A DNA stretch of 64,000 bases. Origin: Anoplopoma fimbria. Its lineage: Eukaryota > Chordata > Actinopteri > Perciformes > Anoplopomatidae. Numbering within the stretch: the stretch's first letter is position 1; every line of letters begins with the position of its first letter. The notes under the pieces are model-generated. The model was not told where the DNA came from. It searched no databases and saw only the letters and a program-made list of their open reading frames with translations. The translations under genes were made by a program, and so were the position numbers. Positions 30,413 to 59,234 of the stretch are shown in pieces. The stretch is from positions 1-64,000 of the forward strand of contig NW_026553339.1 of the NCBI RefSeq assembly GCF_027596085.1, read 5' to 3'.

Positions 30413-31768
<1,356 letters not shown>

Positions 31769-35320: not shown

Positions 35321-36476
35321 CTAATATTATCCCAGATACATGTGCAAAGGAAAATTAAAGATTATCAGAAGAAAAATCTTAATGATGGAAATTGTTTATG
35401 TTCAGTAAAAAAAATCAAAACTACAGTTAACACAAATCCTGTAGATGGTGAATTGAAATAACAAATACCATCTAAAAATTGCAGTATTGTGTTGATGACG
35501 TTTTGAAGCTTTGCAATCAGATGTAGTTACCAACAGATTACAGAACAGATTATTATGTCCTCACCAGATCAAGGACAAAAGAACAATCAAGGGAGTTCAG
35601 ATAAATGCAAGGTAGCAATCAATAATGTTTTCATTGATCGGAGAGAATAAATCCTACCAATTTCCCGTGACCCGCTTTTCTTTAGCACCCTGATCCAGCC
35701 AATCACATGAAATATGAAAATGTAATGCTCAGAGTGCCGTGAACGGCACATGCATGTGTACTCACCAGAGGATGAAACCTTTGCACACTTCATGAGCTTT
35801 ACTCTAGAACCCCCCTCAGGACAAAACTTTGTTTCACAAGATATTTCATAAAAATGTTCCAGGGAAAAATGAACTTCCTGCTGATCTCTATCTTTTATTT
35901 AATATTGTGCAATCACTGCATCCCATTGCCATTTCTAACCACCATCTTATGGTTTTGGAACCAGTGACTCTGGCAGAAACCTCAGGGAGAGAGAGACAGA
36001 TATCCTTGGTGTGTTTGACATTGGCATATAAAATAATCCAAAGCCTATTCAAAGGTTATTTTTGATTTAATTCCCTGTCTTTCTGTTTCCAGGTGACTAA
36101 AGGGGGCCCGAGGGGAAGTCCTGAGATCTTATTCAACGTGTTATTCATTTTCAATCTTAATTAGTTTAAAGGAAGATAGAGAGTGGGGCGGTTAAGGTGA
36201 AGGACAGTGCTTTTCTCCCTTTTGCAGTAATTAAAGACTTGGAAAAAGCAAAATTCACAACTGTTACTTCCTGTGCATTGATAACTCAACCAAACATGTG
36301 AGCTGCTAAAGCTTCACAATGGTCAATATCATGCTACCTTTAACTGGACTGGTTTTAAATAATAGTTAATGCTGTAAATGAAGGAGGAAAACCATGGCGA
36401 CACTTCAGAGTCATGTAACTTATCACTTCAATCAAGTGAACACCACCTGTGATTAACAAACACTTGGGGTATAAAA
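35321..36476. other. upstream region of the trhr2 coding exon
   Basis: No repeat was recognised. A TATAAAAG at 36471-36478 lies only about 17 bp before the ATG at 36495. It is too close to serve as a TATA box for a normal 5' UTR unless the leader is extremely short. GTTAGCAG at 36485-36492 could instead be a splice acceptor. Confidence 0.5.
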
Positions 36477-36494
36477 GACAAGCCGTTAGCAGAT

Positions 36495-36877
36495 ATGACC
36501 GACAACGGGAGCTCCAGAATTGACACCCCCACCAACATCTCTCTGAGTCCCAGTGACGCCATCTCCGAGTCGTTGGAGTACAAGACGGTGTCGGTGTTCC
36601 TGGTCCTGCTGGTGTGTGGCTTGGGCATCGTTGGGAACATCATGGTGGTCCTCGTGGTCCTCACCACCCGTCACATGAGGACACCAACCAACTGTTATCT
36701 AGTCAGCCTTGCCATAGCCGACCTTACGGTGCTGGTGGCTGCAGGGCTGCCCAACGTGTCGGACAGTCTGACAGGCACATGGGTCTTTGGCCACGCCGGC
36801 TGTCTGGGGATCACTTACCTTCAGTACCTGGGCATCAACGTGTCCTCCTGCTCCATCACTGCCTTCACTGTGGAGAG
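36495..36877 (+). CDS. trhr2: trhr2 coding exon 1 (N-terminus to ICL2 boundary)
   Basis: 383 bp, ATG at 36495, donor GTGAGG, phase 2 out. It encodes residues 1-127: the extracellular N-terminus, TM1, TM2 and TM3 up to [10 protein letters not shown], with the Arg of the ERY motif split across the intron. Its first 149 bases are duplicated at 34450-34598. Confidence 0.96.
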
Positions 36878-39800
36878 GTGAGGATGGATGAACAACCAAC
36901 TACAACTACAGCTTTTGCTAGATTGTGCTGTTTTGAGCTGGTATTGGCGTTCATTTGACTTTTACTTATTTGACATACAGGAGAATGCTTTGTCTTTTAA
37001 TTTGCATATGCGAGCAAGGTAAACAATGTGGGGCTCGGTGATGTTGTCTGATGCAAGCCAATGTCTTGGCCAATTTTTATTTAAAACCTTTTTCTTTTTT
37101 AAAGAAAACCACTGCCAACAGATTGCTGTACTTCCTCCAGCAAAGGAGGAAGTATTGAGACGTTGTTGAGCACAAAGTCTGTGTAGTGAGGAGGTAATGG
37201 ATGAATAAGACTACAAACATGGAACTGTAACGTAGGAGACTGGTGTTTGTTTACTCGTTTGCTACTGACAGTCAATGTTACTTTAACCATGACCCAGATT
37301 CCATTCCCTTAACTAAACCATACGTATGTTTATTTTTATAACCACAGCGACAAAGGGTCTGTGCCCCTCAAAAGGTTTTGAAGATACAGACAAATGACTT
37401 CCTGCTGATAGGGGCATCAAATGGTGGCCCTTAAAGCCTAACCGTTGTAACTTAATTATTGCAAATAATAACCTGCGTCATCATTAAAAACACAACCGAC
37501 GTAGTACAATGAGCGAGTCCACACAGGTTGGAGGGGTCAGACAAACACAGGACTTTCTTCACAGGCAATACTGTCCGTATCGCATGCGAAAATAAAACAA
37601 CCTTTTCTCACGTTACACGTTTGTAACGCAGTGTGTTTCTGTATTTGGTTGTATTTTTCCGTATTTGAAGCTCTTTTCTGTATTTGCTTGCGTTTTCTCT
37701 ATTTGCAACACGTTTCTATATTTGAATCAGGAGAGACGAGTCAGATGAGGAAAAGATAATTGTTTATTATAAACACATGATGTGTGATAAAGTCTTCACA
37801 GAGTCTTTGGCTCTGGGACTTGTAATCGAGGGACATTTGCCCTGAGCAGCAGGAAGATAAATCCCTCCCGTGGAGTCCAGACACTGGTGGTGGTGGTGGC
37901 TGATGAGGCTGATAGAATGATGAGCTGATAGAATGAGTTGATGAGGCTGATGAATCTGATGAAGGCTGTGCTGTGATTGGGAGGTGGAGGGGAGCATGTA
38001 GCAGCAACAGTCACATACTAAAGGCAGAGAGACAATAATATTTAAACGACAGCATGCAAAAGTATAGTCTTCCTGACTGAGCTTACGCTAGAGCTTCATT
38101 TTGTTGAGTTTTCACATGCTTTTTTTTTTCTGTAATTGCAGTGCGGTTCTGTTACAAACTCAAGGACACCTAGACGCAGACACAGACAAAAGGGATGCAA
38201 GGGAAAAGGTTTAAATAGTTTCATTGTAAATTTATGTAGAGGGGAATTGGGGATCTGGGGAAATCCGAAGAAGCTGGTGGTGTTGTGGTGTTGAAGGAGT
38301 GAGGCAGGGAATATGGTGAGGTAAGATGATGTGGCAGTGTTGTCAGAGAGTGGCTGGCAAGTTGGCGTGGCAAGTTGGCGTGGCAAGTTGGCGTGGCCAG
38401 TTGAACGGCGATGAGTGGCTGGTCTGGCAGGAGGGAATGGTGGAGAGTACGGGCAAGGCTAAGTGTTGATTTGCAGGCTTGATGGTGTGTGATGAACCTG
38501 GCAGAGTGGGTGAAGAGCGTAAGGAAAACCATGCCCCGAAGAGAGCCGAGGCAGACAGACACAGGAGGGAGGGGGAGAACACCGGGAAACAGGTCGACAA
38601 AACTTTATTCCTAACTATTTCTTTATTTGGTTGTGTTTTCTGTATTTGCAGCCAGATTCTGTATTTAGTTGTGTTTTCTGTATTTAGTTGTGTTTTCTCA
38701 AAATGCTAAGCTAGCGTTTTCAAGACGTTCTCTTCATTTGCCAGTGTATTGTCTATTTGCATGTGTACTCTTTGTAGATCAATTTGTTCTCTGAGGGCCA
38801 CCAAAGCGACAGATCAGAAAACTATGGTCCACTCTGGATGGACAAACAATTTATTGTTTAACTTTAGGAAAACTCAGCACTGCGTACAAATTTTCTTTTT
38901 ACAGCCTCCAGCAATGGGTTGTAATTTCAAAAGAATATTTGTGACCCCACAGACATCTACAGTTTGCTGGAAAAAAAAGAATATATATATATATATAATG
39001 GATTTGCATCCAATATTTCCACAGACTGTGCCGGTCTCTGCAATGGCCCGTGCAGCAGAATTTAACATATAAATAATAACAGTTCAACAAAGTGTAAATA
39101 GTACTCTCGTAGATGTTACCCTCTGTATATAGAGGGCTGGTAAACAATTGCGTTTTGACTTTGGATCAAGTAGTTATGAACTGTTGGGACACAACCCAAA
39201 TGACAAAAAAACAACATGTTTTCTTAATTATCTGCAGTAATAGTAGTATCTATCAATGCAGATAGTTTGGGGTTTACTTATCTACGTCTTGAGATACCTA
39301 TATCTAAAATGTATTCCACCACACCAGTTCAATGGAGGTTAATGGAATTAACTTAGCTGCTTCAATCAATTCAATTATCTTGAAAAAAAAACATATCTCT
39401 CAAAAAAACGACGCCCCAGTTACTATGGATAAACCTTAGTTTTGATTGGAACTGTTCGCTATCAAAGAAGTATTTCCTTCTAAACCAAAATTCCATTCAC
39501 CTTCACTGAATCCAGATGCCAGCAGAAAGTGAGAGGGATATCCCCAAATTTGCTTCCTGTGCAACAAACTATACTTCCAAACCATGCTGTAGTGTTTTAT
39601 ATTTCTCAATGCATTTCTACCACCTAAACCACCTGAGTCATGTGAATAAACTAGACTTTAAAGATGGTTAGGTAATACATCACATACAACGTGACTGCTC
39701 ACTTTACTAGTGGCACAGTTACATTGCAGTAATGACATTTCACACATTTCACATTTCACCAAAAGCACGTCTCTCCCCTCTCAACCCCCCGACGTCCCTG

Positions 39801-42800
39801 GGCATCTGATTGAATTCGGCCCCGAACTGTATCACTTTTTATGGCTGTCATTGACAACGCACTCCAACACACACACCGTCCCCGCCCCACCTCTGCTAAA
39901 GGCTGTGGGCCCGAACGATTATGATAGTTTAAGTGGTCACAGCAGTGCTGTTTCATTTCATGAATACTTTACTCGCCATTATGTTGTCAAAAATCACACC
40001 TCACCTGATATAGTGCAGTACAGTCTCCTTCAACTCCCCAAATGGAGACAGGAGGAAAACACAGTGACAGGCCAGCTGCTGTGTTTACAGGCAAGCAGGT
40101 GAAGCATCACGGAGCATATCACTGGCTCGGCCATTTCCATGTTCCCCCTCACTGATATCCACACAGGAAATGGGAGAGAGTGAAAGCAGTGCCTTGATGT
40201 CTGTTGCTGCTTTAAAAAAACCAGGAGATTCCTGCGTTTCACCTTCTAGGGAATAGGTTACGACTACAGTCTGCCGTTCAGCTGTGCCCTGGCCCTTCAG
40301 CAGATGTGTGGACACGGCACTTCAGCTGCTGCGAGATCGAGCCATGAGGGTCTCAAAGGCCTCATCGCCATGGCTGATCTTACAACTAACTAAGTTGGGG
40401 TTCACAATAAACTGGAAGGGGTGCAGTCTCCTGCTCCCTGAAGAATCAGATAATTATGCTGATAGATGAGTCTTTCAACAGTGAGCGCTGAGTCAACGCC
40501 AATTTGCCTACGACCTCTGGATTTTGTTAGAAAAGCTCAAAACAGCGGCTCGTGGAAAAGTGTGTACTATACTAGCTATCTCAGAGGGCCTCTCTGTGTG
40601 CAGGAGCTGAGCCTTGCCCTCAGAGACCAGTGGAGAGAACAGCGTGCCCGTAAATTAAACCAAAACATGAAGGCATAGCTTTCGTCTGTTCATGCATCCT
40701 AGTTGCTGTGTAAAAAATATCACAATGGTAGGGAAAACCCTAATTTTCATAAATTGCATCCACATTTTGGCAAATTCCTTGATATTTATTATTCCACTCA
40801 TGTCATCAAATTCTGCTTTTCCATTTGTTTGTTTTTTGCATCACAGAAAAGTGCAGTCTGCTGGCCACTCTGTCGGACCACAGATGGACGGCCTTTCTGC
40901 AAGCAGTCTGCAACTGTGTCGCAGTGTTATGTGACGCTGGGGTTTGTGGCAGTTGCACATCCGGTGGTACCACTGGGGCCCCTGCACATGCAGCGCCTAC
41001 AGAGGTGGTTGCCAGCCTTTGCTTGGATGCCAGGAGACTCAAGCAGAGCTTGGTTACCATTCCCCCTGCCTGGTTAGAGTGGTAGGTGATGTTTGGCCCC
41101 GATGGCTCTCCACATTCTTAGGAAGGAGAAGTTGATCTGTTTGCCAACCAGGCAACACCCACTGCCTGCTATGGTTTTCGCTGGTACAGTTGCACGATCC
41201 ACCCCTTGGGTAAAAGGATTTTGCACACATGCAATGACCAAGAAAGCTGCTTTATGCCTCTATGCTGTTTCATCTCATCCCTTTCCTGTTGGAGAGAGTG
41301 AGGCGGGAGCAGTTGTGTCTGCTAGGTGCCGTTGTATGCAGTAATGACCCTGGACTGTCCCCCAGATCTGGGGTGTCCTCTATAGGCTTTAGTTCTGAGA
41401 GGGACAGCTTTGTGTATAGCGCCTTTCTAGTCTTCCGACGGCTCCAAGTGCTTTTACTGTACATATCATTTACCCATTCACACCAATTCATACACTGATG
41501 ACAGGAGCTACCATATAGGTGCCACCTGCCCATCAGGACTATCTAAGCATTCACACCCATTCACACGCCAATGGCCTTTGGATTTCCTTTTAGCCTCTGG
41601 AGCCCTCCTCTCTCAAGGCGTTGTACAAGAACTTGAGGAGTTCTTTCAGGTCACGGGTCATGCAACTGGAGGCTTTTTGTGTTCCACCCCGTGTGGGAGA
41701 AAGAGAGGCAAGGTTGCTTTGGCAAGTTATGGATTCAGGATTTAGAGTGAATCATAGCACAGAGACGGCACTGGTGAAAATTACCAATGACCTTCTAATA
41801 GCTTCAGACAAAGGACTTGTCTCTGTACTTGTATTGCTAGACCTTAGTGCTGCATTTGATACCATTGATCACCAAATCCTATTACAGAGATTGGAGCATC
41901 TTATAGGCATTAAAGGAATCGCACTTAGCTGGTTTAAGTCGTATTTATCAGACCGATCTCAGTTTGTATATGTAAACAATGAAAGCTCGATGAAAACCAG
42001 GGTTAGTCACGGAGTTCCACAGGGGTCTGTTCTTGGACCTATTTTATTTACCTTATATATGCTTCCCTTGGGGAATATTATCAGAAAACACTCAGTAAAC
42101 TTTCATTGTTATGCAGATGATACCCAGTTATATCTATCAATTAAGCCAGATGAAACTAACCAGTTCTCTAAACTTCAAGCATGTCTTACGGACATAAAAA
42201 CCTGGATGACCTGTAACTTTTTAATGTTAAACTCTGAAAAAACAGAAGTTATCCTACTAGGTCCAGATCACCTTCGAATTCAATTATCTAACGATATAGT
42301 TTCTCTAGATGGCATTGCTCTAGCATCCAGCACTACCGTTAAGAACCTTGGAGTTATCTTTGACCAGGATCTGTCTTTTAACTCTTATATAAAACAGATC
42401 TCAAGGACAGCCTTTTTTCATTCACGTAACATTGCGAAAATCAGGCAAATCCTGTCTCAAAGTGATGCAGAAAAACTAGTTCATGCATTTGTTACCTCTA
42501 GACTAGATTACTGTAACTCCTTATTATCAGGCTGCTCTAATAGGTCTCTTAGATCTTTACAGTTGATCCAGAATGCTGCAGCACGTGTTCTAACAAAAAC
42601 TAAGAAAAGAGATCATATTACTCCAGTATTAGCTTCTCTGCACTGGCTCCCTGTTAAATCAAGAATAGAATTTAAAATTCTTTTACTTACCTCTCATCTC
42701 ATCTCATTTTCGTTATCCGGGGTCGGGTCGCGGGGGAGCAGCTCAAGCAGGGGGCCCCAGACTTCCCTACAAAGCTCTAACTGGTCAGGCACTGTCTTAT

Positions 42801-45800
42801 CTTAAGGAACTTATAGTTCCATATTACCCAACTAGAGAGCTGCGCTCAATCAATGCAGGGTTACTTGTGGTTCCTAGAGTATATAAAAGTAGGATGGGAG
42901 CCAGAGCCTTCAGTTATCAGGCTCCTCTTCTGTGGAACCAGGTTCCAGTTTCAGTCCGGGGGCAGACACACTCACCACTTTCAAGAGCAGGCTTAAGACC
43001 TTCCTTTTTGATAGCGCTTATAGTTAGGGCTGGTTCAGGTTCGCCTTGGTCCAGCCCCTAGATATGCTGCTATATGCCTAGACAGCCGGGGACTACCTAG
43101 GATACGCTGAGCTCCTCTCTCCTCTTCTCTCCCTCCTTCTTTATGTATTAATCTCCTATTTATGCACATTACTGATTTTGCTTCTTCCCCGGAGTTCTTG
43201 TGCTTTCTCGCCTCGCAGGTTCCCAGGAATCGGGGTTATATTTGGACTGTCATCGTGCCACCTACTGAGGCCCTGCTGACACCCACTACTACTACCACTA
43301 TCATTATTAGTCACATTACTATTATTATTGCCTGTACTATTACGCTTATTGACTTGCTTCTACCCTGGAGTCTTTGTGCTTTCTCGCTTCGCAGGCTTCT
43401 ATAAATCGTGGCTGTACCTGGACCGTGGATGTGCATCCTGCTACGGCCCTGCTGACACCGACTGCTACCACCATTATTATTATTACTAGTCACATTACTA
43501 TTACTATTACCTGTACCATTAAGCATTTTAGCTTTACTTCCACCCTGAAGCCCTTTTGCTTTCTCCTTCTGCAGGTTTCCATGAATCGTTGTGGTACCTG
43601 GACCGTAGTCGTGCCTCCTGCTGTGAGCCGACTGCCACCCACTGCTACTTCGATTATTATTATTAGTCACATTACTATCCCTATTTTCATGGCTATAATT
43701 CTACTGTAATAATTGCTGCTGTTATTATAAGTAGTCTTATTATATGAATCATTTATGTCATATACATTGAATGTGTTGTATCTAAGAACTGTTATGCTGC
43801 TCATTCTGTACACATGACATCTATTGCATTCTGTCCATCCTGGGAGAAGGATCCCTCCTCTGTCGTTCTCCCATAGGTTTCTTCCTTTTTTTCTCCCTGT
43901 TAAAGGGGTTTTTAGGGGAGTTTTTCCTGTGCCGATGTGAGGGAAGGACAGAGGATGTCGCATGTGCACAGATTGTAAAGCCCTCTGAGGCAAATTTGTA
44001 ATTTGTGATTCTGGGCTATACAAAATAAACTGAATTGAATTGAATTGAATTATGATGAACTCACGGCCCCCACCAGATAAATTGGACAGCCTGAAAATGT
44101 TCAGGGGAGATTATGACCTACCTCCAGTAGAGGGCTCCGTCTGTTCTTATAGAACCATGGTTACAATATCGTAACCTTCGATAGCAGACTGTACAACCTT
44201 TCATGATGTATGGAAATAAATGTCAACCAATAGCTGCATGAAAGGTAGTAAAACCAGACATCAGCAGTTAAGTTAAAACATGCAATGAGAGAGGAATGTG
44301 CAACCTGTTCCGTCTTCTAACATCACCTTATTTCTCTTATGATAGAGGAAATTATCTGTTTAATGAATTACAGTGAAAGAGTCGATATTAAGTCGAAAAA
44401 GGATATTCTTCGCATATCACATCAGTCTTTTTTTCTCCTCTTGGTGTGACCTGGACAGAAAAAAAATTCTTTACCGATGGTCGGTGCTCTACTGAAGATT
44501 TTTATCTAAAAAATGGAAAAACATTGCATAAATAACACATTGATATCTTCTTACCAACAGATTGTCAGTAGTTGAAACATTGACAGCTACGTTTGAGTTT
44601 GAACCCTCCATTTCCTCTTTGCATGCAGGTACATAGCTATCTGCCATCCAATAAAGGCTCAGACAGTGTGCACGGTGTCCCGGGCCAAGCGGATCATTGC
44701 CGTGGTTTGGATCTTCACCTGTGTCTACTGCATGCTGTGGTTTTTCCTGGTGGACATTCAGGTTAGATAAATACACTGCATTTTTCCATTACATTTTGTC
44801 TGTTACTGGTTTAACCTGGGACGGCATGGTGGTGCAGTGGTTAGTACTGCCTCACAGCAAAAGGGGTTCTTACTTTGACCCGCTGATTGGTCCTTCTGGG
44901 TAGAGTCTTCTTTCTCCTGGGTCAGGGTAATTGTTGACTCTAAATTGCCTGTGGGTGTGAATGTGAGCATGAATGGTTGTCTGTCTCCATGTGTATTCCC
45001 TGTGATAGGCAACTTGTCCATTGTAAACCAATCGTCTCACCCAATGTCGGCTGTGATTGACTCTAGCCCCTCGCAACCCTGTAAAAGATAACTGTTACAG
45101 ATAATGGATGGTACAATCATTTTTTTAATGTAAAATTACACTGAATAAAGCGAACGGTACAAATGTCTGCTGGTGAGAGCTGTGCCTGGAGGCATTATGT
45201 TTTGGGTTGTCCATCCATCCCATTTCATTTTTGGTGAATGCAATATCTCAGGAACGCCTCCCTCAAATTTTGCATAAACATTCACCAGGACTCAAGGATT
45301 AATTTAACTGATTGGATCTTTGTGGTCAAAGGTCAGGATCACTTTGACCTTACTGGAGCACCTGGAGGGAATTATATTACATATCACACAAACATCCAGT
45401 TGGACTCAAGGTTGAACTTATCAGAATTACGTGGTCAAAAGTCACTTGACCTCACAAAACACCGTAACTACAGTATTTATAGTTAACTATGACAATTTTA
45501 CACAAATGTCAAATAGGATAAAATGTGATGACATTTTGGACAGACATGCAACTTACATACAAGGTCAGTGTGTATGTATGTATGTATGTATGTATGTATG
45601 TATGTATGTATGTATGTATGTATGTATGTATGTATGTATGTATGTATGTATGTATATATATAAATTCTTACATTGCTTCATTTCTATTTGAACACACTTT
45701 TGGGCTATATAAATAAATAGCACCCTTCACAGGTACTGCATAGTGTGATGATATAAATGAGAGATGAGATAAACAGAGGAATAAAACATTTGTGATTACC

Positions 45801-48800: not shown

Positions 48801-51800
48801 AATATGGTCTAGCCCTTGGGGTCACGGTGAACGGCTGATTTTGAGGCAAACAGTCAAGTAGTATTCATGTCATATCTGACCTGTTTTCAGCCTATTTCTC
48901 AAGTGAAACGCTGTGTACATAACCATTGGTGGTTTCGATTTTGAACCCTGTATGAACTGCTGTAACACCAGGCTTTTTATGACCAAAGTCACCTGGTCTA
49001 GCTGCAGCATGTTCTGGATGTGATGTGGCTGCTGGAGCTGTTGTGGCCACTCTAGACTATGCTTGTGATTCCACCAGATGCACCACAGCAAATTTCAGAA
49101 GTGCTAGTGGTTGAACCTCAATAGTTCTAGTCTATTTTTGATGGAGCTGCGGAGTGTCTCCTCTACTGGTTGAGGTGATGCATCCAAAACAGGCTCCTTT
49201 TCCTGTACCCCCTATCTGTGGTCTTTAAAGTAAGCATTCACCTTCTGCTAACAGGCATTATGTGTGAAATAAAGACAATAAATAATGAGGATGCATGTAT
49301 TTGTAACAAGGAAAACACTGCCAGAAGTTTTCAATGCATGTTCATAACTGGACTCTATTAACTTGGTCTGTAGGCTAGAACACATCAAAAAAACTACTTG
49401 CAGATTTTGATCTGTAGATGCCAATAAATTATTTTGTGAAATATTTGGTTTTCATTTTTTATTTATTTCATTGATAATTATTTTAGCCTATGTTTTCAAA
49501 ATTAAATCACCTTTGACCCTTAAGTTAAATGATACCCTGGACTTAAAATCCTTGTTTTATTTGATGGCCTTGCTGCCGAAGTAACAACATTAATGGCCTT
49601 AAACAGGACTTCTGAGTCCTGTTTATATCCACCTGATGAATGCATGTCCAACATTGACTCTCCTATTAGCTCTGTTTTGGTCTCCACCGACTCTAAGAAA
49701 AAAACATGGCTCTTTAACTACTAGATGCTCCACTATTGTTCAGCAGCTAGGTGCTAACATTTTTGCTTTAATGTTTGGTGCTGTACAGTGAGACATTTTA
49801 AATTACTAATTTTTACATTGTTGTTATAAAACCATTTGTTTTTGCAGCTTTTAGGTTTTAACGGATATAGGCTTGTAATTTTAACAAATAACAAGATATT
49901 TTCTAACACAGTTGCTCATGTTTTGTAGTTATGATACAGCTCGGAGGGTTTTATACCCATCTGAGCTGTGTTAGAAATGAAACGTGATGAAATTAAAGCA
50001 CATTTCAAGTCCCTTAAACAATGTCTGGACTGCTGGATGCCTTAAAAGGACTTCTCCCTTGTTCCAACCAAGAATGATTGTGTCTGCAGGTTGTGCAAGG
50101 TCACAGATTATACGATAACCCTTTAATTAAATGGTTGTTGAGTGCTTTACCTCCCCATGCAACCTTCAGCATTGGTTGTTTCTGTGTCACTGAGTGCGTC
50201 CTGAGTGTCTCTGCATGAACACGGCCTCGGTGAAACTTAACTCTCATGCGAGAGCAGAGAGAAGATCCTAATCTCTTGTGTTCAAGGGGCTCCATCAAGG
50301 AGCAGAAGATTTGCATAATGTGATTTGGGATTTACATTGAAGTTTTCTTAATACCGCAGATGGTTTCGCTCTCTCAGTTCTTCAATGGGCACTTCATGCT
50401 CTTTCATTCTTTTGATAGGCCAACTCAATCTGATAGGAGTTTGATAAACTTGTGTATGCCAAAGAATGGCACTTTTATGATTAGATTTTAATACAGTGTG
50501 GTTTGAGATTGTATAGTTTTAATCTCTGAGAGTCTCTTCATGTCTGTGATCTCCTCAAGTGTATGTCGAGGAGGACAGATGGGGAAGCACTGTTGATAGC
50601 ATCGGAGGCTAAATGTGAATTCTTTGGCTCAGTGTGCTGAACTGTGCATCCGTTGAAATCCTGGATTCGGTCTGGGAGGATGCTGTTTGCCAGCTAAAAA
50701 AAAAATCTGATTTGTTTGTAATGCCGGAGTCAAGTCTCCTTTAGCCACATAATTACAGTGTTAATATGCATATTCAAAATGTCATTGCAACACTTTCTGT
50801 CTCATCATGGCAGCGGAGAGATAATTAGAAAGCTCTCCTCCTTCGTATTCAATTAAACGCTTTGTTGTTTATGAGTTTATCTTTTTTAACTTCCTGCCGA
50901 GGTGACTGTCACTGGCTCAATGCTTAAGGCACGGATACTGACCCTTATCTCAAATAGCATTTTGCTGCGAGGAGGCGTGGGCATGATACCTGGTATCAAG
51001 TGAGAACGAGGCTGCAGGGTGAGACTAGGGGGGTAGGTGTTATTGGCCACTGATAAGACTAATCACTTGAGCCTTACAGAATGACTTGCTCTTTTCCCCT
51101 TCCCTGTCTCGAAGGGGTTCAGAAATTGTCTGAGCCGTTACCATGGTAACCAGCCAATGGAGTGGTGGGTTTGGGACACCTTTCTGAGACGCTACAGTGC
51201 TTTGCCATTTGAGGTTGAATGTCCTTGCTGTCCATTTGCATCTCTTGGTTGGCTGCCGTTTTGTGTGTTGTGTCATCATAGACTGTATAAAACATGGACA
51301 TAGTCTGTCTGACTACCAAGCCGGCTAAGAGCAACACGCTAGTGTAAGAAGCTAGGCTAGCTCTTTCATTTTATGCTTTAACATTAATGTTATCCACCAT
51401 AAAGAACATATAAAGCCTCTTTCTTTCGTGATCCCCTAGCTTTTCTTATAACGTCACTATGAATCAGATTTGTGGTTTTTAGGTGAATATCTTAACATAC
51501 AGTGGGTACGGAAAGTATTCAGACCCCTTTAAATTTTTCACTCTTTGTTTCATTGCAGCCATTTGCTAAAATCGAAAAAGTTCATTTTTTCCGCATTAAT
51601 GTACACTCAGCAACCCATCTTGACAGAAAAAAACAGAAATGTAGAAATTTTTGCAAATTTATTAAAAAAGAAAAACTGAAATATCACATGGTCATAAGTA
51701 TTCAGACCCTTTGCTGTGACACTCATATTTAACTCACATGCTGTCCATTTCTTCTGATCCTCCTTGAGATGGTTCTACTCCTTCATTGGAGTCCAGCTGT

Positions 51801-53290
51801 GTTTAATTAAACTGATTGGACTTGATTAGGAAAGGCACACACCTGTCTATATAAGACCTTACAGCTCACAGTGCATGTCAGAACAAATGAGAATCATGAG
51901 GTCGAAGGAACTGCCCAAGGAGCTCAGAGACAGAATTGTGGCAAGGCACAGATCTGGCCAAGGTTACAAAAGAATTTCTGCAGCACTCAAGGTTCCTAAG
52001 AGCACAGTGGCCTCCATAATCCTTAAATGGAAGAAGTATGGGATGACCAGAACTCTTCCTAGACCTGGCCGTCCAGCCAAACTGAGCAATCGTGGGAGAA
52101 GAGCCTTGGTGAGAGAGGTAAAGAAGAACCCAAAGATCACTGTGGCTGAGCTCCAGAGATGCAGTAGGGAGATGGGAGAAAGTTCCACAAAGTCAACTAT
52201 CACTGCAGCCCTCCACCAGTCGGGGCTTTATGGCAGAGTGGCCCGACGGAAGCCTCTCCTCAGTGCAAGACATATGAAAGCCCGCATAGAGTTTGCCAAA
52301 AAACACATGGAGGACTCCCAAACTATGAGAAATAAGATTCTCTGGTCTGATGAGACCAAGATTGAACTTTTGGCGTTAATTCTAAGCGGTATGTGTGGAG
52401 AAAACCAGGCACTGCTCATCACCTGCCCAATACAATCCCAACAATGAAACATGGTGGTGGCAGCATCATGCTATGGGGGTGTTTTTCAGCTGCAGGGACA
52501 GGACGACTGGTTGCAATTGAAGGAAAGATGAATGCGGCCAAGTACAGAGATATCCTGGAAGAAAACCTCCTCCAGAGTGCTCAGGACCTCAGACTGGGCC
52601 GAAGATTCACCTTCCAACAAGACAATGACCCGAAGCACACAGCTAAAATAACAAAGGAGTGGCTTCGGAACAAGTCTGTGACCATTCTTGACTGGCCCAG
52701 CCAGAGCCCTGACCTAAACCCAATTGAGCATCTCTGGAGAGACCTGAAAATGGCTGTCCACCAATGTTCACCATCCAACCTGACAGAACTGGAGAGGATC
52801 TGCAAGGAAGAATGGCAGAGGATCCCCAAATCCAGGTGTGAGAAACTTGTTGCATCATTCCCAAGAAGACTCATGGCTGTACTAGCTCAAAAGGGTGCTT
52901 CTACTCAAAACTGAGCAAAGGGTCTGAATACTTATGACCATGTGATATTTCAGTTTTTCTTTTTTAATAAATTTGCAAAAAAATTTCTGTTTTTTCTGTC
53001 AAGATGGGTTGCTGAGTGTACATTAATGCGAAAAAAAAAAATGAACTTTTTCGATTTTAGCAAATGGCTGCAATGAAACAAAGGGTGAAAAATTTAAAGG
53101 GGTCTGAATACTTTCCGTACCCACTGTATATTGGATGGATTGCAGTGAAATTTGGTGCAGACATTAATGCTCCCTTTAAGATTAATTGAACTTTCTCCTG
53201 ACTTTTCATCTTGCGCTATCATCAGGTCAAGCCACTTTGGCTTGTGGCTAAATACTTGCATAACTAATGATACTCCCATCAACTAACTAC

Positions 53291-53325
<35 letters not shown>

Positions 53326-56300
53326 TATTATTATCTTAAGCCCCAAAACAGCAACATAAAACTCAAATGGGTTGAGTCAGACCCTTGAATTCCTTCAAGG
53401 AACTTGATTATTTTTCTTAAACCATCTAAAATGGCAGCCATTTTAAAAACTAAACCTCCCCAAGTGTAAGTTTATACCAGATCACATTAAAGCTAGGGTG
53501 GGCGATTTTGGAGAAAACAGCCGTTGAGATTCCGTCGCGTGCTCTCTGGCCTCTCCCTGCCACGCTACCTGCTGTAGCTCCTCCCACCGAACGTCAGTTA
53601 TGCGCGTTCATGTGAATTCAGTTACATTGATAGGAAGACGAAACACCATGTCCGATTCCGAGGTAATTAAACATTAGTGCTGATAGCTACATAAGTACAT
53701 ATATAGCATCAACATCTTACTCACAGACATAACATGTATGTTATCTTAAAATCATTGCAATTGCGCTGGTAGGCCTAAGAAAGGTAGCTGTATCAGCCAA
53801 GCAAGATAGCAGACTAATTGCAACTGTAGTTCGTTAGCATAAGCTGCCAGAGCTAGTAACCTGGTCATCAATATATTATATACTGACGTTTTGAAGTCAT
53901 GAATTGTACTACAATAACGCTAATTTTTTGCATTATAAGAGTGTCCAAGAAGAGAGCCAAGCTGGCTCTGGGGACGATTATGTCCCAGGTCCTAGCAGCA
54001 CAGGACGTGGGATATGTAGGGTCAGCGGACGTCCTGCTGCTAGAGGCAGGCAGCCTAGGGGCAGAGGCAGGGGCAGAGGAAGGGGACGAGGTCGCGGTCG
54101 GAGAGGTCTTGACACGATAGGGCAAGAGGACATGGCCCGTGTGGAAACAATCAGGATTCAACGAATCACAAATGAGCAGGTATGTTTATTTCATGTCATA
54201 CTTTTAACCAAAAAAATCAGGCGAGCCAATTTTCAGTATAAATGTGTAATAAGTAATTGTACATTTCCTGGCCAGGTTCGAATCAGAAACCTGAACCTAG
54301 AAGCTTCCCACCATCTACTGGAGCTGTGTTTGGAACGGGAACCATCCCTCATCTTTGACCTCCTGGCCATGTCCATCCCTCATCCCACATCTGACCCACA
54401 ACATTAGGCCTTTTTTTTCTGGTCTTTGGCAAACCCTTGTCTGATGTCAGCCGGGCTTCTAGGATAGCACTCTGCAGGTCTGCCATGTATCCGTAGTCCT
54501 TCTCCACCTTCACTGTGTAAAGACTCCAAGTCTTTGACTTTTTATTGTAGAGCTTGCAGTACCTGACACAGGATGAAATAATGTCTCAATGTATCCACAT
54601 CAGTCATGCAGCTTAGAATATTGTAAATCTGAAATATATATATATGAAAATTATTGAAAACGTACTCTATTGAGCCATCAGCCTTCCTCTTCACCGGTCT
54701 GTGAACATGATGGTTATAGTCCAACGCTGCTAAGAGGGTGCGAGCCTTGTAAACAGGTGGGCTAAAGCTGAATCGCTTGCTGGCATACATCAGGATATGA
54801 TTATGGAAGGATTCCAGCTCAGCGGTTGACCTTACAGAATAAAAGAAACAGATGATTGAGCTATGACCCCATATCTATACACATATAATATAACTTTAGT
54901 GCTCATTTGAAAGTGGCCATGAATACAGCGTTATAGATATGCTTGTAAGAGCCATTACCATGAATAGTGTTTATAACACCATGTGCCCAGTATTGTGACA
55001 AGTGTAAGACAGTGTATAGCAAGCACCTCAGCCAAGTCATTAGCCTGAGCACTGTATCTCAAATGCCCATATAGCAGGACTTAGCCACTTACAATAACCT
55101 TCTTATGAAAACATGTTTACTTACCTGAAACTCAGGAACTTCTCCACATTCTTCAGCCAGTGCTCATCCAGCACTATTTCTGACAGAACCTGAAAGGCCT
55201 CAGAATCACTCTGGATCCACTCCTTCTCCCTGTCGGCCGACAAGGGGCCATGTTCACAGCAAGATAGGGCCCACTCATGCTCTCCTTGAACATGGTGGAG
55301 AAGACCTGTCCACATATCCTACAGTAGAACAGAACTGCATCATTTCTTATTGTGTTTTTTTTTTTACACAATAAATAATACCTATTTTGTCATTATATAA
55401 ATGCTAGTACAAGTTTTTAAAATAAATATAAAATAAAATAACCAAAGTCAATTTATCAATAAAATCAAAATGTAAGAAATGGTCAGGAATCGCAAAGTGA
55501 AATCCAAAACAGAACAATACTTACACCGAACTGATTAGTGTTCTGTGCAGTCTTACAGCAATACCAGAAATGGTTGCATATCTCCTTACTCCAGGTAAGG
55601 AGAATTGAACATCCTTTCCGAAGGCCTGCCTTGACACGGAATGGAAAATAACATTTAAATAAAGCTCAGACTTTGTCATCAATGTTGATTTGGCAAATTC
55701 TCTGGAACCAGGAACCTGATGTAATCACCATCTGTGTGGTAGACACCTGGCTTATAACTGATAACTGCCCTCAAAGTGAAATATATGATCCTACAGTATG
55801 TCTTTATTGCTAACTAAGTACTCACCCATTCCACGACAACTGATGTGCCCCTGGAAGTTATTTTCACTTCAAATGGTCTAAGTGCTCCACATTCAGCATC
55901 AGTTACTGGGTCCTTTGTGTTGCACTTGGGGATTGGTACGACAAGATACTGAGCCAGCTGTTTAAGACAGCTATGGTAGACAATGGAAGCTGGTTGTCCA
56001 ATTATATCTTCCTTGCAGAGGACTTGGGTCTTCTCTGGTAGCGGTGGTATCACTTCTGAGGAATTGTGTCCATCATCAATGTCATGAACAGTCTCCTCCA
56101 GACCAACAGCTGGTAATGTGTCCAGCCATTTGCTCTTTTGGAGAGCTCCACCAGTCCTGTGATAACAACATATACAAACGCTACAGAGTTTAGGAATAAC
56201 ATTTGCGTATTGAAAGGCCTGAACCACAATACAGATATATCAAACATGCAAGTTGCTGGAGCAATTATACTATTGTTTTTCGTGTTATTTGGGGAATATG

Positions 56301-59234
56301 CCGTTTTATGTGACTACTGCGTGGATTAATTGTTCATGGGAAGGCATTTAGGTTATCACCTGGCATGGTGTATGTAATTCGGGGCAGCTGACAGTTTTGT
56401 ACCGTGTCCCAAGTCATGGGAATTGTTTGCTTTGTATTGAACTGAATTGAATACCTGATATGGCAAATAGACGTAATTGAGTTGCATGTTGTAATTTAGT
56501 TGCATCATGTGCTACGGTGAGCAAGAACCAGCAATGGATAAACGGGTCACAACACTCAAAGATATTTGATTTATTATACATACCGCACACAGAGATAAGG
56601 CACGTAATCGATGTCACTGTCATCACTGCATTCGCTGTCTTCCCCCATCATTTCTTCCTCCTCTGAAGATGACCCATCGTCCATCTCCATTTCTGGGTGC
56701 CAACTGTCATCTTCTCCACTGTCATCTTCCCAGGTGTTATCGGCCCAGCCAATTCTATGAAGGAGATTTTTTAGAGGGCTAAGTTTAAAAAGTGTATTGC
56801 ATCAATAATACAGGGATTTGATGGAACATACAAGGGAACACTAGAGCCGAGGACACACTTACGTAGAGTTCCGGATGTCATTAAATTCTTCTTCAGTTAT
56901 GACTTCAATGTCAGTTACCTGTGGAGAAATACTACAAATACAAAAACAATAAAATACAATATTAACATATTGGAGTACTTGAGAAGTCAATAAATGGAGA
57001 GGTATTAATGTTGATTAGTTGATACAGAAGTAACTTTTTCCACTGTTCTTTCTTTACCTTGTATCCATACTTTGAAATGTAGTGGCAGGATTGGTGTCCT
57101 CTACATCTTCAGCATCCAAGAAGTCATCGGCTCTGAGAATATAAATAGTGTTATGAAATAAAGATCTTTGAAATTAGTTATTAGGCTATATTGTCTTCTA
57201 TAAAGGTGGAAGCTGAAAATAAATGTACACAATTGCATAATTTGGAAATGTTAATGGAAAACGGTGGTGGGGTAGTGATCACCTGTCTAAGAGGGTCTCT
57301 GAATGTATGCTTGAAGCTGGGGGAAGAGGCAGGTTTCTCCTGCGCTTGCATGGTGTGGATGAAGTAGGGGATGTGAGGTTCTCATAACTGCCAAAACAGG
57401 TGAAGCACAACAGTGATTGGTCAACAAAGAAAAACGTTATCGGAATTAAAAAAATATATATATTTGTTAAAATAACACAGAAAGCCAGATTACACACAAG
57501 GAAACCGTCACTTCAAAGCGATCGCGAAACTGAGCTAGGCTGCTGCTAGCTTGCAACAACGTTATAACAATACATGGAATATCTTATGCTAGACTTCCTC
57601 GCTGTGCTTATCTTGGCAGTTGTGTCAAAGTAGCTTTTACACAAACGTGACTCGGACATTATCCACAGTTGAGTTGAGGCCTAGGCCACGTGTTAGCACA
57701 ATCTCTGTGTTATTCCGACAGGGTTGGTGTGACCATAACTAACCTATAAAACGGACCGGGAAAAGAACCATGGGCTGATGCAAGACATCCTACAGAACCG
57801 TATTGAAATGGTTACATTACAGAACCGTAATATAACGGTTATCATGGCTTTGCTTAGTAAAAACCATACCAGCCGACACTTTACATATTCATCACAATAT
57901 ACCATGGAGAGATAACACAATTCCTTACCTGTCTATAAGAAATGTAGCCATCTCAGCGTCCGATTTTAAGTTTCTCAGGTCACGTAACTCTCTCCATCGC
58001 TCATAAGCCACGCCGATGTTTACTCTGGTTTTATTTCGAGCTCTCTCCGCCTCCCTTTTAGTAGCTGTCCTTTCAACAAGTGTCTTTCCTCTTTTTTTCG
58101 CTGTCTTAGTGGTGTTAGTTGATGGTATCCGGGGAATGGGAAATTTATGGGCCGTTGATGAAGACATGGCTATTCATTTGTTGTCCGCCGTAGTAGTAGT
58201 ACAAAACTGTCAGACCGCTAGGCTCGTGAACGCTCACGCAGGGACGCACCAACGTCGTTGCCAAGGTGACCGGACAGTCCCACAGCCAATAAGAACGGAG
58301 AATCGGAGCCTCGCTCTGATTGGTCAAAGTGTACATGAGCGGTGGCAATTTTTGGGTGCGGCCCACAGAGGCAGGGGAGAGCAAAGTTATGAGCAGATAT
58401 TCTCAGAGCACTTCACCTACATATAGCTGACTGGCTATTAGGACAGTTTTGCCAAATATTACAGTAAAGAAATTACCCACCCTAGCTTTAAAACATTTAC
58501 AGTATAAATTTCATCTTTTTTCATTTTAAGCTAGTTTTAAGGTTTGGTGCAACCCAATTTAAAGTTAAACCATAATTTAATTAGGTATAATTAAAATGTA
58601 ATTATTATTAAATTAAAATGAATCATCGTTGTTGCAACTCAGCCTTAGAGGCTTTATTTACACAATAATTCCTATTCCATCTGCTTTAAATGTTTTTTTA
58701 ATGGGCTGTATCTCTCTTTTTTCCCTACAGGTGACAAAGATGCTGGCAGTTGTGGTGATCCTATTTGCTCTACTGTGGATGCCCTACCGGACTTTAGTTT
58801 TGATCAACTCTTTTGTGTCCACGCCTTATCTGGATGCCTGGTTCCTCCTGTTCTGTCGGACATGCATCTATGCCAACAGTGCTATAAACCCTGTGATATA
58901 CAACGCTATGTCTCAGAAGTTTCGCTCAGCATTTCGCGGGCTTTACCGCTGCCAGCGACCAGAGGGAAATCAGAGGACGCTGTCAATGATCCAGACAGGC
59001 TTCGGCACCATTAGAGACCCCCTAGCCGCCCAGGCCAATAGCAATGGAACCAATGAAAACGCAAGGAGAGACCTCTTTAATACTGCCACTGATATGAATT
59101 CAAAGCAAAATGGAAGTGGTCGTCAGGAGACAGCAACAGCCAATAGCAAGAAAGTAGACCGTCCCATCAACATCAGCCCAGCTACTAGCTTTGGTGTGTG
59201 TCCAGCTGAGACGACGTCATCTGGTGATGAGTAA
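36495..59234 (+). CDS. trhr2: thyrotropin-releasing hormone receptor, probably trhr2 (5 coding exons)
   Basis: This is a class A GPCR of the plasma membrane that binds the tripeptide TRH and normally signals through Gq and phospholipase C. Exons 36495-36877, 44629-44761, 46161-46312, 47192-47315 and 58731-59234 join with phases 2,0,2,0 to give 431 residues. Visible in order: a glycosylatable N-terminus (NGS, NIS); TM1 with [14 protein letters not shown]2 [21 protein letters not shown]1 Cys in [15 protein letters not shown]; the ERY variant of DRY split by intron 1; ECL2 Cys in VQCGYK; TM5 [15 protein letters not shown]; a third loop rich in Arg/Lys; TM6 [22 protein letters not shown]7 [18 protein letters not shown] blocks closely match mammalian TRHR. 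The trhr2 assignment rests on adjacency to zc3h18, the arrangement I recall around mouse Trhr2; sequence alone does not separate the paralogues here. Introns 1 and 4 (7.8 and 11.4 kb) are filled with mobile DNA. Confidence 0.92.
37620..38760. repeat. CTGTATTTG minisatellite interrupted by an 880-bp insert
   Basis: Diverged units of TTTCTGTATTTGGTTGYGTT occupy 37635-37720 and resume at 38615-38705. The block between (about 37730-38610) has different composition. It contains GGTGGTGGTGG and GATGAGGCTGAT repeats (37887-37965) and three perfect copies of the 13-mer GCAAGTTGGCGTG (38358-38396). I do not recognise the insert family. Confidence 0.55.
40846..41730 (+). mobile_element. DIRS-type retrotransposon pol relic
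   Basis: Frames 40703-41077 and 41093-41344 read [21 protein letters not shown]. Later come a WLST-like block and [17 protein letters not shown] (LLERVRREQ at about 41269-41295). These resemble the RT/RNase H segment of DIRS-like elements in fish (PLGLLHMRPLQ.W, later LLxRVRR). Frames shift and stops intervene; no tyrosine recombinase part was seen. A SINE (41413-41575) and then an L2 LINE interrupt it. Confidence 0.55.
41413..41575 (-). repeat. SINE fragment (family B, reverse)
   Basis: agcgcctttctagtcttccg, then gccacctgcccatcaggact and gcattcacacccattcacac, match the reverse complement of the 3' two thirds of the SINE at 27052-27348. Confidence 0.7.
41731..44050 (+). mobile_element. L2-type LINE, 5'-truncated (copy 2, longest)
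   Basis: It starts inside the reverse transcriptase ([20 protein letters not shown]) and runs through RT, a C-terminal domain and a 3' UTR. The 3' UTR contains three tandem units of about 178 bp, beginning at 43202, 43378 and 43558, and ends in (TTGAA)n. A foreign piece of about 75 bp breaks the C-terminal frame at 42690-42768. Copy 1 at position 1 shares the last 796 bp almost unchanged. Confidence 0.88.
41733..42695 (+). pseudogene. L2-type LINE reverse transcriptase (partial)
   Basis: An open frame of about 320 codons contains the RT motifs in order: [15 protein letters not shown] (motif A, catalytic Asp), [18 protein letters not shown] (motif B), [11 protein letters not shown] (motif C, YADD at 42110-42121), and [11 protein letters not shown] with [11 protein letters not shown] (motifs D/E). 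The endonuclease and the beginning of RT are missing. The frame is destroyed at 42690 by the inserted piece, although matching C-terminal sequence ([15 protein letters not shown]) resumes after it. Confidence 0.88.
44629..44761 (+). CDS. trhr2: trhr2 coding exon 2 (ICL2 and TM4)
   Basis: Acceptor TTGCATGCAG, donor GTTAGA, 133 bp, phase 2 in and phase 0 out. It encodes [20 protein letters not shown] and the TM4 segment [20 protein letters not shown], ending DIQ. Confidence 0.96.
44821..45114 (+). repeat. teleost interspersed repeat (SINE-like)
   Basis: ggcatggtggtgcagtggtt at the left, ctaaattgcctgtgggtgtg and gaatggttgtctgtctccat in the body, and a gttacagataatggatgg end are typical of a very common fish repeat. 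It is moderately diverged. Confidence 0.7.
45180..45545 (+). repeat. common teleost repeat (aatatctcaggaacgcctcc type)
   Basis: It contains aatatctcaggaacgcct, then cattcaccaggactcaagg, gtggtcaaaggtcaggatca and caaatgtcaaataggataaa. These blocks recur in many fish genomes. The family was not resolved. Confidence 0.5.
45571..45655 (+). repeat. (GTAT)n microsatellite
   Basis: About 21 uninterrupted GTAT units followed by a short TATA run. The frames that read MYVC repeats here are artefacts of the repeat. Confidence 0.97.
45826..45900 (-). repeat. LINE tail fragment (GATAAGATAAG type)
   Basis: aagataagataagataatcc followed by tttattagtcccgcagcggg matches 8538-8590. An A-rich tract with two long A-runs follows (45940-46068). 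Confidence 0.6.
46161..46312 (+). CDS. trhr2: trhr2 coding exon 3 (ECL2 and TM5)
   Basis: Acceptor TGACATTCAG, donor GTACTG, 152 bp, phase 0 in and phase 2 out. It encodes [20 protein letters not shown] with the conserved ECL2 Cys, then TM5 and GLIARVLYL. Confidence 0.96.
46752..46982 (+). repeat. tRNA-derived SINE (family A, copy 2)
   Basis: It is nearly identical to 2707-2960 (a few differences, for example cttcattgc against ctaccattgc), ending in the same LINE-like tail and a shorter (ATT)n. The high identity implies recent activity. Confidence 0.8.
47192..47315 (+). CDS. trhr2: trhr2 coding exon 4 (third intracellular loop)
   Basis: Acceptor GTCCCTCCAG, donor GTTTCT, 124 bp, phase 2 in and phase 0 out. 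It encodes [20 protein letters not shown] and a basic stretch ending SALSSRKQ, which continues into VTKMLAV of TM6 as in mammals ([12 protein letters not shown]). The exon is GC-rich and poorly conserved apart from its end, as expected for this loop. Confidence 0.93.
47316..51470 (+). other. first part of trhr2 intron 4
   Basis: No gene was recognised. 47631-47780 is a 45-codon open stretch with splice-like edges, but joining it to exon 4 gives an immediate stop. The rest is AT-rich and unassigned. Confidence 0.55.
51500..53126 (+). mobile_element. near-intact Tc1-type transposon
   Basis: It is flanked by TA (51498-51499, 53127-53128). Terminal inverted repeats of about 210 bp start CAGTGGGTACGGAAAGTATT. 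Each carries an inner copy of the motif (ataagtattcagaccctttg near 51693 and its complement near 52920), giving the IR/DR layout. The two terminal repeats are almost identical to each other, differing mainly in A/T runs, so the insertion is young. It landed inside an older teleost repeat whose continuation is visible at 53128. Length 1,627 bp is full size. Confidence 0.95.
51875..52914 (+). pseudogene. Tc1 transposase with one frameshift
   Basis: A Tc1/mariner transposase is covered almost end to end. It has the bipartite helix-turn-helix with a GRPR-like hook (PRPGRPAKL), then SDETKIE (first Asp), FQQDNDPKH (second Asp) and [10 protein letters not shown] (Glu), with DD34E-type spacing. The frame is broken once: the T-run at 52368-52371 after SDETKIEL appears one base short. 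The first frame therefore ends at 52447 and the rest continues from 52393 in another frame. Everything else looks intact. Confidence 0.92.
53128..53335 (+). repeat. old teleost repeat followed by (ATT)n
   Basis: ttggatggattgcagtgaaa, then ggtgcagacattaatgctcc and tatcatcaggtcaagccac, match a widespread fish repeat. The Tc1 element at 51500 appears to have inserted into it at a TA. An ATT microsatellite occupies 53289-53334. Confidence 0.6.
53491..53508 (+). repeat. left terminal inverted repeat
   Basis: AGCTAGGGTGGGCGATTT, preceded directly by TTAA. It pairs with 58470-58487 at 16 of 18 positions. Confidence 0.9.
53648..53662 (+). CDS. accessory gene exon 1 (15 bp)
   Basis: ATGTCCGATTCCGAG followed by donor GTAATT. 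It codes five residues, phase 0. Confidence 0.6.
53648..54407 (+). CDS. transposon accessory gene: RG-rich, possible P2X7-ballast-like protein (3 exons)
   Basis: Exons 53648-53662, 53940-54179 and 54276-54407 join in phase 0 to give 128 residues starting [19 protein letters not shown]. Residues about 30-60 are a dense RG/GR tract ([13 protein letters not shown]), typical of RNA- or nucleic-acid-binding disordered regions. The C-terminal part [20 protein letters not shown] with PHPTSDP recalls the segment before the cysteine cluster in fish proteins related to the cytosolic ballast domain of P2X7. The cysteine part is absent because a TAG follows at once. The last 59 bp overlap the antisense end of the minus-strand gene. 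The function in transposition is unknown, and the family assignment is from memory and tentative. Confidence 0.7.
53940..54179 (+). CDS. accessory gene exon 2 (RG-rich tract)
   Basis: Acceptor CATTATAAG, donor GTATGT, 240 bp, phase 0 on both sides. An alternative acceptor two bases later would not keep the frame. Confidence 0.7.
54276..54407 (+). CDS. accessory gene exon 3 (C-terminus)
   Basis: Acceptor TTTCCTGGCCAG; 44 codons including TAG at 54405-54407. It encodes [20 protein letters not shown] and the proline/His end. Confidence 0.7.
   Translation, partial: VRIRNLNLEASHHLLELCLEREPSLIFDLLAMSIPHPTSDPQH
54349..54562 (-). CDS. transposase-like exon 10 (C-terminus)
   Basis: Acceptor TGTGTCAG, 214 bp including TGA at 54351-54349. 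It encodes [20 protein letters not shown] and ends WTWPGGQR. The last 19 codons are antisense to the accessory gene's exon 3. Confidence 0.8.
54349..58167 (-). CDS. transposase-like gene of the TTAA element (10 exons, 555 residues)
   Basis: Exons: 58167-57929, 57387-57283, 57132-57058, 56931-56863, 56754-56584, 56156-55826, 55629-55525, 55318-55125, 54830-54666 and 54562-54349. All junctions are GT-AG, the phases agree throughout, and no internal stop occurs over 1,668 bp. Visible: a basic N-terminus with [20 protein letters not shown] (DNA-binding-like helix region, about residues 50-75); a long acidic Ser/Glu/Asp linker (115-220); [15 protein letters not shown] and [18 protein letters not shown] (about 280-330); [35 protein letters not shown] with clustered His/Cys; and [20 protein letters not shown] near 435-455. 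These C-terminal blocks resemble uncharacterised proteins repeated many times in fish genomes. In longer relatives I recall a central block with catalytic Asp residues between VVEW and the HFWYCC exon. Here only a 196-bp intron separates them, so catalytic competence is doubtful. Confidence 0.82.
54666..54830 (-). CDS. transposase-like exon 9
   Basis: Acceptor ATTCTGTAAG, donor GTACGT, 165 bp, phase 2 on both sides. It encodes [20 protein letters not shown] and [14 protein letters not shown], the most family-typical block. Confidence 0.85.
55125..55318 (-). CDS. transposase-like exon 8
   Basis: Acceptor TACTGTAG, donor GTAAGT, 194 bp, phase 0 in and phase 2 out. It encodes [20 protein letters not shown] and then [15 protein letters not shown]. 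Confidence 0.85.
55525..55629 (-). CDS. transposase-like exon 7
   Basis: Acceptor CGTGTCAAG, donor GTAAGT, 105 bp, phase 0 on both sides. It encodes [20 protein letters not shown] and [15 protein letters not shown]. Confidence 0.8.
55826..56156 (-). CDS. transposase-like exon 6
   Basis: Acceptor TTATCACAG, donor GTGAGT, 331 bp, phase 2 in and phase 0 out. It encodes [40 protein letters not shown] and [13 protein letters not shown]. Confidence 0.85.
56584..56754 (-). CDS. transposase-like exon 5 (acidic linker)
   Basis: Acceptor CTTCATAG, donor GTATGT, 171 bp, phase 2 on both sides. It encodes a tract very rich in Asp, Glu and Ser ([20 protein letters not shown]). Confidence 0.8.
56863..56931 (-). 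CDS. transposase-like exon 4
   Basis: Acceptor TATTTGTAG, donor GTAAGT, 69 bp, phase 2 on both sides. It encodes [21 protein letters not shown] nearer CCACAG acceptor would create an immediate stop, which fixes this choice. Confidence 0.75.
57058..57132 (-). CDS. transposase-like exon 3
   Basis: Acceptor ATTCTCAG, donor GTAAAG, 75 bp, phase 2 on both sides. It encodes [20 protein letters not shown]. Confidence 0.75.
57283..57387 (-). CDS. transposase-like exon 2
   Basis: Acceptor TTTTGGCAG, donor GTGATC, 105 bp, phase 2 on both sides. It encodes [20 protein letters not shown] and a serine-rich end; the KRRR cluster may be a nuclear localisation signal. Confidence 0.78.
57929..58167 (-). CDS. 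transposase-like exon 1
   Basis: ATG at 58167-58165, donor GTAAGG, 239 bp, phase 2 out. It encodes a basic Lys/Arg-rich start and [20 protein letters not shown], ending MATFLID. Confidence 0.85.
58470..58487 (-). repeat. right terminal inverted repeat
   Basis: The reverse complement reads AGCTAGGGTGGGTAATTT, followed outside by TTAA (58488-58491). It pairs with 53491-53508. Confidence 0.9.
58731..59234 (+). CDS. trhr2: trhr2 coding exon 5 (TM6, TM7, C-tail)
   Basis: Acceptor TTTTTTCCCTACAG; 168 codons including TAA at 59232-59234. It encodes [20 protein letters not shown] (TM6), [20 protein letters not shown] (TM7 with NPxxY) and a C-terminal tail rich in Ser, Thr and Asn. The tail holds possible phosphorylation and palmitoylation sites (Cys in GLYRCQRP) and ends TTSSGDE. 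The tail differs from mammalian TRHR, as expected for a paralogue. Confidence 0.96.

Follow-up and report, generated by a model that had tools for sequence, protein, structure and literature searches.

A probable Kol0-type Kolobok element, internally deleted and non-autonomous, inserted at TTAA in a TRH receptor gene of Anoplopoma fimbria

A 64,000-nucleotide stretch of DNA from the fish Anoplopoma fimbria (the window; NW_026553339.1, positions 1 to 64,000) includes a 4,997-bp element, 53491-58487, that is bounded by two TTAA sites and carries two convergent spliced genes. The question raised by this locus is whether the element is an intact two-gene transposon, as open reading frames and matching ends had suggested to an initial sequence-only reading. 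Comparison with database proteins points to a different answer: with a probability of about 0.88, a Kol0-type Kolobok transposon that inserted at TTAA in a TRH receptor gene has suffered internal deletions and is non-autonomous.

The boundaries of the element are well defined. At the left end (53487..53508, plus strand), the TTAA target site is followed by a terminal inverted repeat beginning with AG, and at the right end (58470..58491, minus strand) the corresponding inverted repeat is followed by TTAA, so that the 4-bp target is found on both flanks (53487-53490 and 58488-58491). The element ends (AGCTAGGGTGGG...) match in inverted orientation at 16 of 18 bases after the TTAA; with TTAA counted in, 53487-53508 on the plus strand and 58470-58491 on the minus strand are 91% complementary over 22 nt. 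When the terminus pattern with TTAA was scanned for, allowing up to three mismatches, only two sites were found in the whole window, both of them ends of this element, and there were no matches in 100 shuffles. In 60 Markov resamplings of the window (a mean of about 35,600 TTAA pairs each, spaced 0.5-12 kb apart), no TTAA pair reached 16/18 and the best reached 14, confirming the TTAA flanks and inverted termini that had been described at the outset. The real window holds 32,248 TTAA pairs, five of which match at 16/18 or better, this element included; three of the other four lie at 51,529-53,097 and one at 30,562-31,619, and they surround ORFs of Tc1-like appearance, judged by eye. A blastn search of the window at E 1e-3 gave no further copy of the element or of any part of it.

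Other repeats are present in the same window. About 0.4 kb to the left of the Kolobok element lies a Tc1-like-looking element (51529-53120, judged by eye) with matching inverted ends, whose transposase-like ORF is split over two frames, 51875-52447 and 52393-52914. A second piece of Tc1-like appearance, also judged by eye, is located at 30562-31619, with inverted ends that match at 18/18 and adjoin TTAA and with a partial transposase-like ORF at 30983-31513. The ORF at 41621-42805 may encode a LINE reverse transcriptase, which it resembles by eye (YADD-like motif). A tandem repeat of about 180 bp forms two arrays, 16-432 and 43178-43685, which are 43 kb apart and have related-looking consensus units.

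The proposed insertion within a receptor gene is supported by a TRH receptor exon outside the element and downstream of the insertion (58731..59234, plus strand), which matches TRH receptor chains in the PDB with an E of 9e-36. Further exons that resemble the receptor were located inside 36,453-36,878 and near 44,630, giving a TRH receptor-like gene that is split over at least three exons and apparently has an intron directly after the TVER motif. Given the positions of these three receptor-like exons, the element would lie in a receptor intron between the exon at about 44.6 kb and that at 58,731, a stretch in which an intervening exon is possible.

The family assignment follows published rules. 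The sections available of Kojima and Bao (2022; PMC9587614) give TTAA duplication together with RR/YY ends as the Kolobok rule and describe the Kol0 lineage, with Kolobok-1_XT as its type; the Kolobok families that were reported first, which make up the Kol0 group, are said there to code for KolX in addition to a transposase. Excerpts of PMC6004289 likewise describe Xenopus Kolobok elements as AG-ended and TTAA-flanked, except at one end. The ends of the present element read AG...CT after the TTAA, fitting the 5'-RR/YY-3' rule. Six of the eight transposase relatives scanned match the Mutator-like Pfam model PF20700, three of them (P0003, P0009 and P0037) above the curated cut-off; the remaining two, P0001 and P0005, gave no PF20700 match, and neither P0001 nor the 555-residue window protein reached any Pfam transposase model. 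Together with the DxxH motif of the relatives, the TTAA sites, the ends and the Mutator-like matches support the reading as a Kolobok-type element. The two-protein layout, which had been called unusual, is not a novelty, since transposase plus KolX is the Kol0 plan already described in the available part of PMC9587614. Placement in Kol0 would follow from the published rule and descriptions.

The larger of the two genes (54349..58167, minus strand) was identified from its gene model and homologue alignment as a truncated Kolobok-type transposase gene, with 10 exons encoding 555 aa and a stop. All nine introns are GT..AG, and their phases are consistent. Among the 99 homologues returned by a protein search, the top match is the 775-aa uncharacterized protein LOC132464840 of Gadus macrocephalus (P0001), whose 90% cluster holds 24 sequences. 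The two proteins align in two blocks, with 323/330 and 206/211 identities, and 529 of the 538 residues that they have in common are identical. P0001 is the sole close relative, as the next ones are about 60% identical or less. Because the Gadus protein reads on across them, eight of the nine splice joints are supported; the ninth, at residues 330/331, is the site of 204 missing residues. With nine differences in 538 residues, divergence from the gadid relative is small, in agreement with the youth that had been proposed for the element. This near identity and the open frames fit a recent loss of function, for which selection need not be assumed.

The missing residues, 331-534 of P0001, make up the DDE core and have no counterpart in the 555-aa protein. 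In their place is a 196-bp intron (55630..55825, minus strand, from the gene model and the alignment with P0001), which marks the first internal deletion and cannot hide the core, because 612 coding bases would be needed. A tblastn search of the window with the absent piece gave no match of note (best E about 0.24-0.27). This block carries the DxxH motif and two of the catalytic acids, the first and the second, all of which are lost with it. Across 26 aligned homologues, with gaps counted, D427 is conserved in 23, H523 in 25, and D494, D520 and E640 in all 26. The window protein keeps E640 alone, in exon 9 (54666..54830, minus strand; ELESFHNH), and lacks D427, D494 and D520xxH523. Two alignments were made from 26 longer proteins each out of the 99, of which 25 are common to both and P0031 and P0090 occur in one each; the core region is incomplete in P0031, P0045 and P0029, and gaps therefore enter the conservation counts. 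A conserved Cys/His set, which may bind zinc, is halved in the window protein, with C298 and C309 kept and C332 and H336 gone. The predicted structure of P0001 (mean pLDDT 69.9; blocks in 421-540 at about 77-97) shows an RNase H-like core fold; this core is absent from the window copy.

The second gene (53648..54407, plus strand) was recognized from its gene model and its match to P0100 as a truncated KolX-type gene of three exons (53648-53662, 53940-54179 and 54276-54407), encoding 128 aa and a stop, with two GT..AG introns. Its product has an RG-rich N-terminus and ends before the ballast zinc domain. Up to ...SDPQ, 57 of 58 residues are identical to those of a KolX-like protein of Boreogadus saida (P0100), which is probably an N-truncated gene model; beyond this point the window protein has one histidine and then a stop, whereas P0100 continues with WCICTKCKEMPTDIERKCC and extends into a P2X7-type ballast. 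The Pfam cut-off for P2RX7_C (PF20478) is passed by P0100, P0101, P0102 and P0104, and P0105 and the 128-aa protein remain below it. When the window was searched with P0102 and P0104 (tblastn), no ballast was found beyond the 25-30 residues retained. The RG-rich partner protein with P2X7-ballast likeness that had been proposed thus stands as regards its longer relatives, which have PF20478, and falls as regards the window protein, which stops before the ballast. A P2X7 chain (9e3q) matched a five-sequence KolX profile weakly, at E 0.11. Another B. saida protein, P0105, opens with KolX exon 2 read out of frame and passes from there straight to the ballast, which is perhaps another deletion or a gene-model error.

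The two genes meet at their tails. The final exons of both, lying tail to tail, have 59 bp in common (54349-54407), and the 555-aa protein parts from P0001 after residue 742 to end in 17 residues that are antisense to the KolX gene. Alignments to the relatives place the junction of the second internal deletion, where KolX exon 3 is fused to transposase exon 10, at 54395..54410. The ballast region and the last 33 residues of the transposase were lost here, and the sequences on both sides are best read as one deletion that joined the convergent tails near 54,402. Judging from the codons, both sides of the break could share the bases CA. The numbers first given for the two convergent spliced genes, 10 exons and 555 aa and 3 exons and 128 aa, are correct, with GT..AG and phases in order; of the description as fully open genes, the open frames and usable splice sites hold, but the genes are not intact, one having lost the DDE core and the other the ballast domain.

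Set against Kol0 Kolobok elements, the window copy shares the TTAA target, the 5'-RR...YY-3' ends, a relative with DDE and DxxH, and a second protein with ballast-bearing relatives, and it differs in that its transposase is without D, D and DxxH and its KolX without any of the ballast. A DDD/E transposase with C/DxxH between the second D and the E is found in P0001 and not in the window copy. The KolX-type gene beside the transposase is present but truncated, P0100 passing PF20478 and the window protein not, and the ballast with its conserved cysteines is absent. Pfam places the longer KolX relatives in the P2X7 ballast family, short of which the 128-aa protein stops. Since P0001, at 98% identity and with the same exon joins implied at eight of nine positions, has all the catalytic residues and differs in having residues 331-534 and a C-terminal end of 33 residues of its own, the window copy is classed with deletion derivatives and not with intact members; intactness is read here from database proteins, P0001 being a predicted gene model. 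No description of this copy was found in the open-licence literature by titles and abstract starts. As for related proteins outside transposons, the available sections of PMC9587614 trace the origin of P2X7 to a fusion with KolX, from which its ballast is proposed to come, and the likeness of zebrafish Nanor to KolX and the ballast is drawn from the comparison in that paper alone. The idea of capture had been proposed earlier in a paper on the ballast domain, as excerpted (PMC7016195), the text of which has neither "transpos-" nor "Kolobok".

Beyond the observed ends, gene models, missing domains, apparently intact close transposase relative and ballast-bearing KolX relatives, the arrival route and present mobility of the copy may be pictured as follows. 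In an intact relative, the DDE transposase would bind the inverted ends, excise the element and insert it at TTAA, with aid from KolX, which is RG-rich and bears a zinc ballast of the P2X7 type. Two internal stretches would then have been lost, possibly by interrupted gap repair or by end joining after excision. The first deletion would have taken the catalytic core, and the frame would have survived because the core lies between two phase-0 introns; the second would have brought the convergent genes together at their tails. As both ends are retained, an intact copy elsewhere could mobilise the window copy in trans. If it moves, it would rely on such a relative, because catalysis is missing on any DDE reading.

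Other origins of the same structure have to be weighed. Repeats are commonly mis-assembled, and an intact element at the locus whose missing parts were dropped in assembly would look much like the present one; this is very unlikely, as the window has no N and there are two separate breaks, one of which is a clean fusion of two genes. Nor is this at all likely to be a complete element of a separate, lean Kolobok type that works without the missing domains, as its open frames and matching ends would allow. Two of the three catalytic acids are missing from it, acids that are present in 23/26 and 26/26 homologues and in the 98% identical relative, and the large protein ends in sequence that is antisense to KolX. 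Assignment to piggyBac has to be considered on account of the TTAA flanks on both sides, as piggyBac also uses TTAA; its termini would differ from the AG start. A KolX-like protein is also carried by a few piggyBac families, according to the available part of PMC9587614. Membership in piggyBac is nonetheless highly improbable, given AG...CT ends that follow the Kolobok RR/YY rule of the same source, homologues with the DxxH motif, PF20700 matches in 6/8 and no piggyBac domain in any of the proteins scanned with Pfam.

A further alternative is that the core-less 555-aa protein, with its N-terminal region kept and catalysis lost, represses intact copies, by occupying their ends or by forming dead complexes, as the KP element might among P elements. 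KP and other internally deleted P elements give rise to proteins with a possible repressor function, and deletion derivatives of P elements can arise and spread, according to excerpts of PMC12393704. The likeness to KP-type elements lies in a deletion derivative that keeps both ends and an open truncated gene; the superfamily differs, and any repressor role of the window copy is hypothetical. Within Kolobok, excerpts of PMC6004289 present domesticated Xenopus proteins without DDE as proposed transposon suppressors. Both truncated genes of the window copy are open, with usable splice sites. Against this, a chance deletion keeps the frame one third of the time, the copy appears recent enough to have had little time for decay, and half of the conserved Cys/His set (C332 and H336) was lost as well. 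Self-limitation by this copy is therefore unlikely, and an ordinary crippled copy is the most likely reading.

Core-less relatives count in favour of the repressor reading. Of the 99 proteins scanned for the core, 95 match some part of it, and 63 match both flanks. Among these 63, P0046 and P0056 have no core match, P0030 (from Cyprinus carpio) matches 15/204 residues, and P0019, P0081 and P0093 keep 103-141 core residues; joints were inspected in P0046, P0056 and P0030, and for P0019 the beginning of the joint. In P0046, from Larimichthys crocea, ...VEW runs straight into AAKKKGQSILLTW, the same join from W330 to about 535 as in the window copy, in a quite different sequence. P0056, from Epinephelus coioides, departs at this W too and picks up again at residue 571, which corresponds to the next exon of the window copy. 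As the croaker model joins the same exon ends without the core, it suggests that the core is an exon block between phase-0 introns that can be lost or skipped without a break in frame. Lack of the core at this joint is thus not peculiar to the window copy, and an explanation other than decay private to it is conceivable. However, both the croaker and the grouper model may have been wrongly annotated: P0046 contains a repeat of its N-terminal part and could be a faulty or merged gene model, and the join of the window copy occurs at close identity in none of the 99 proteins.

For the Kolobok family, the internally deleted Kol0 copy shows that open, well-spliced transposon genes need not be intact, which corrects the first-pass reading. 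The Kol0 two-protein plan was already known, and the window copy probably adds a further, internally deleted case to the Kol0/KolX elements, from whose KolX the P2X7 ballast is proposed to derive. The pairing of an apparently intact, near-identical transposase in another fish with a copy that lacks catalysis would make the roles of KolX and of core-less proteins testable, although the copy itself is most likely ordinary. It is also conceivable, though improbable and argued from the P-element analogy, that core-less forms are a recurrent, built-in, KP-like repressor product of Kol0 elements, paired here with a ballast-less KolX. If this were true, it would be, to our knowledge, a new self-limiting system in Kolobok, and would provide a natural test of the role of the ballast in transposition.
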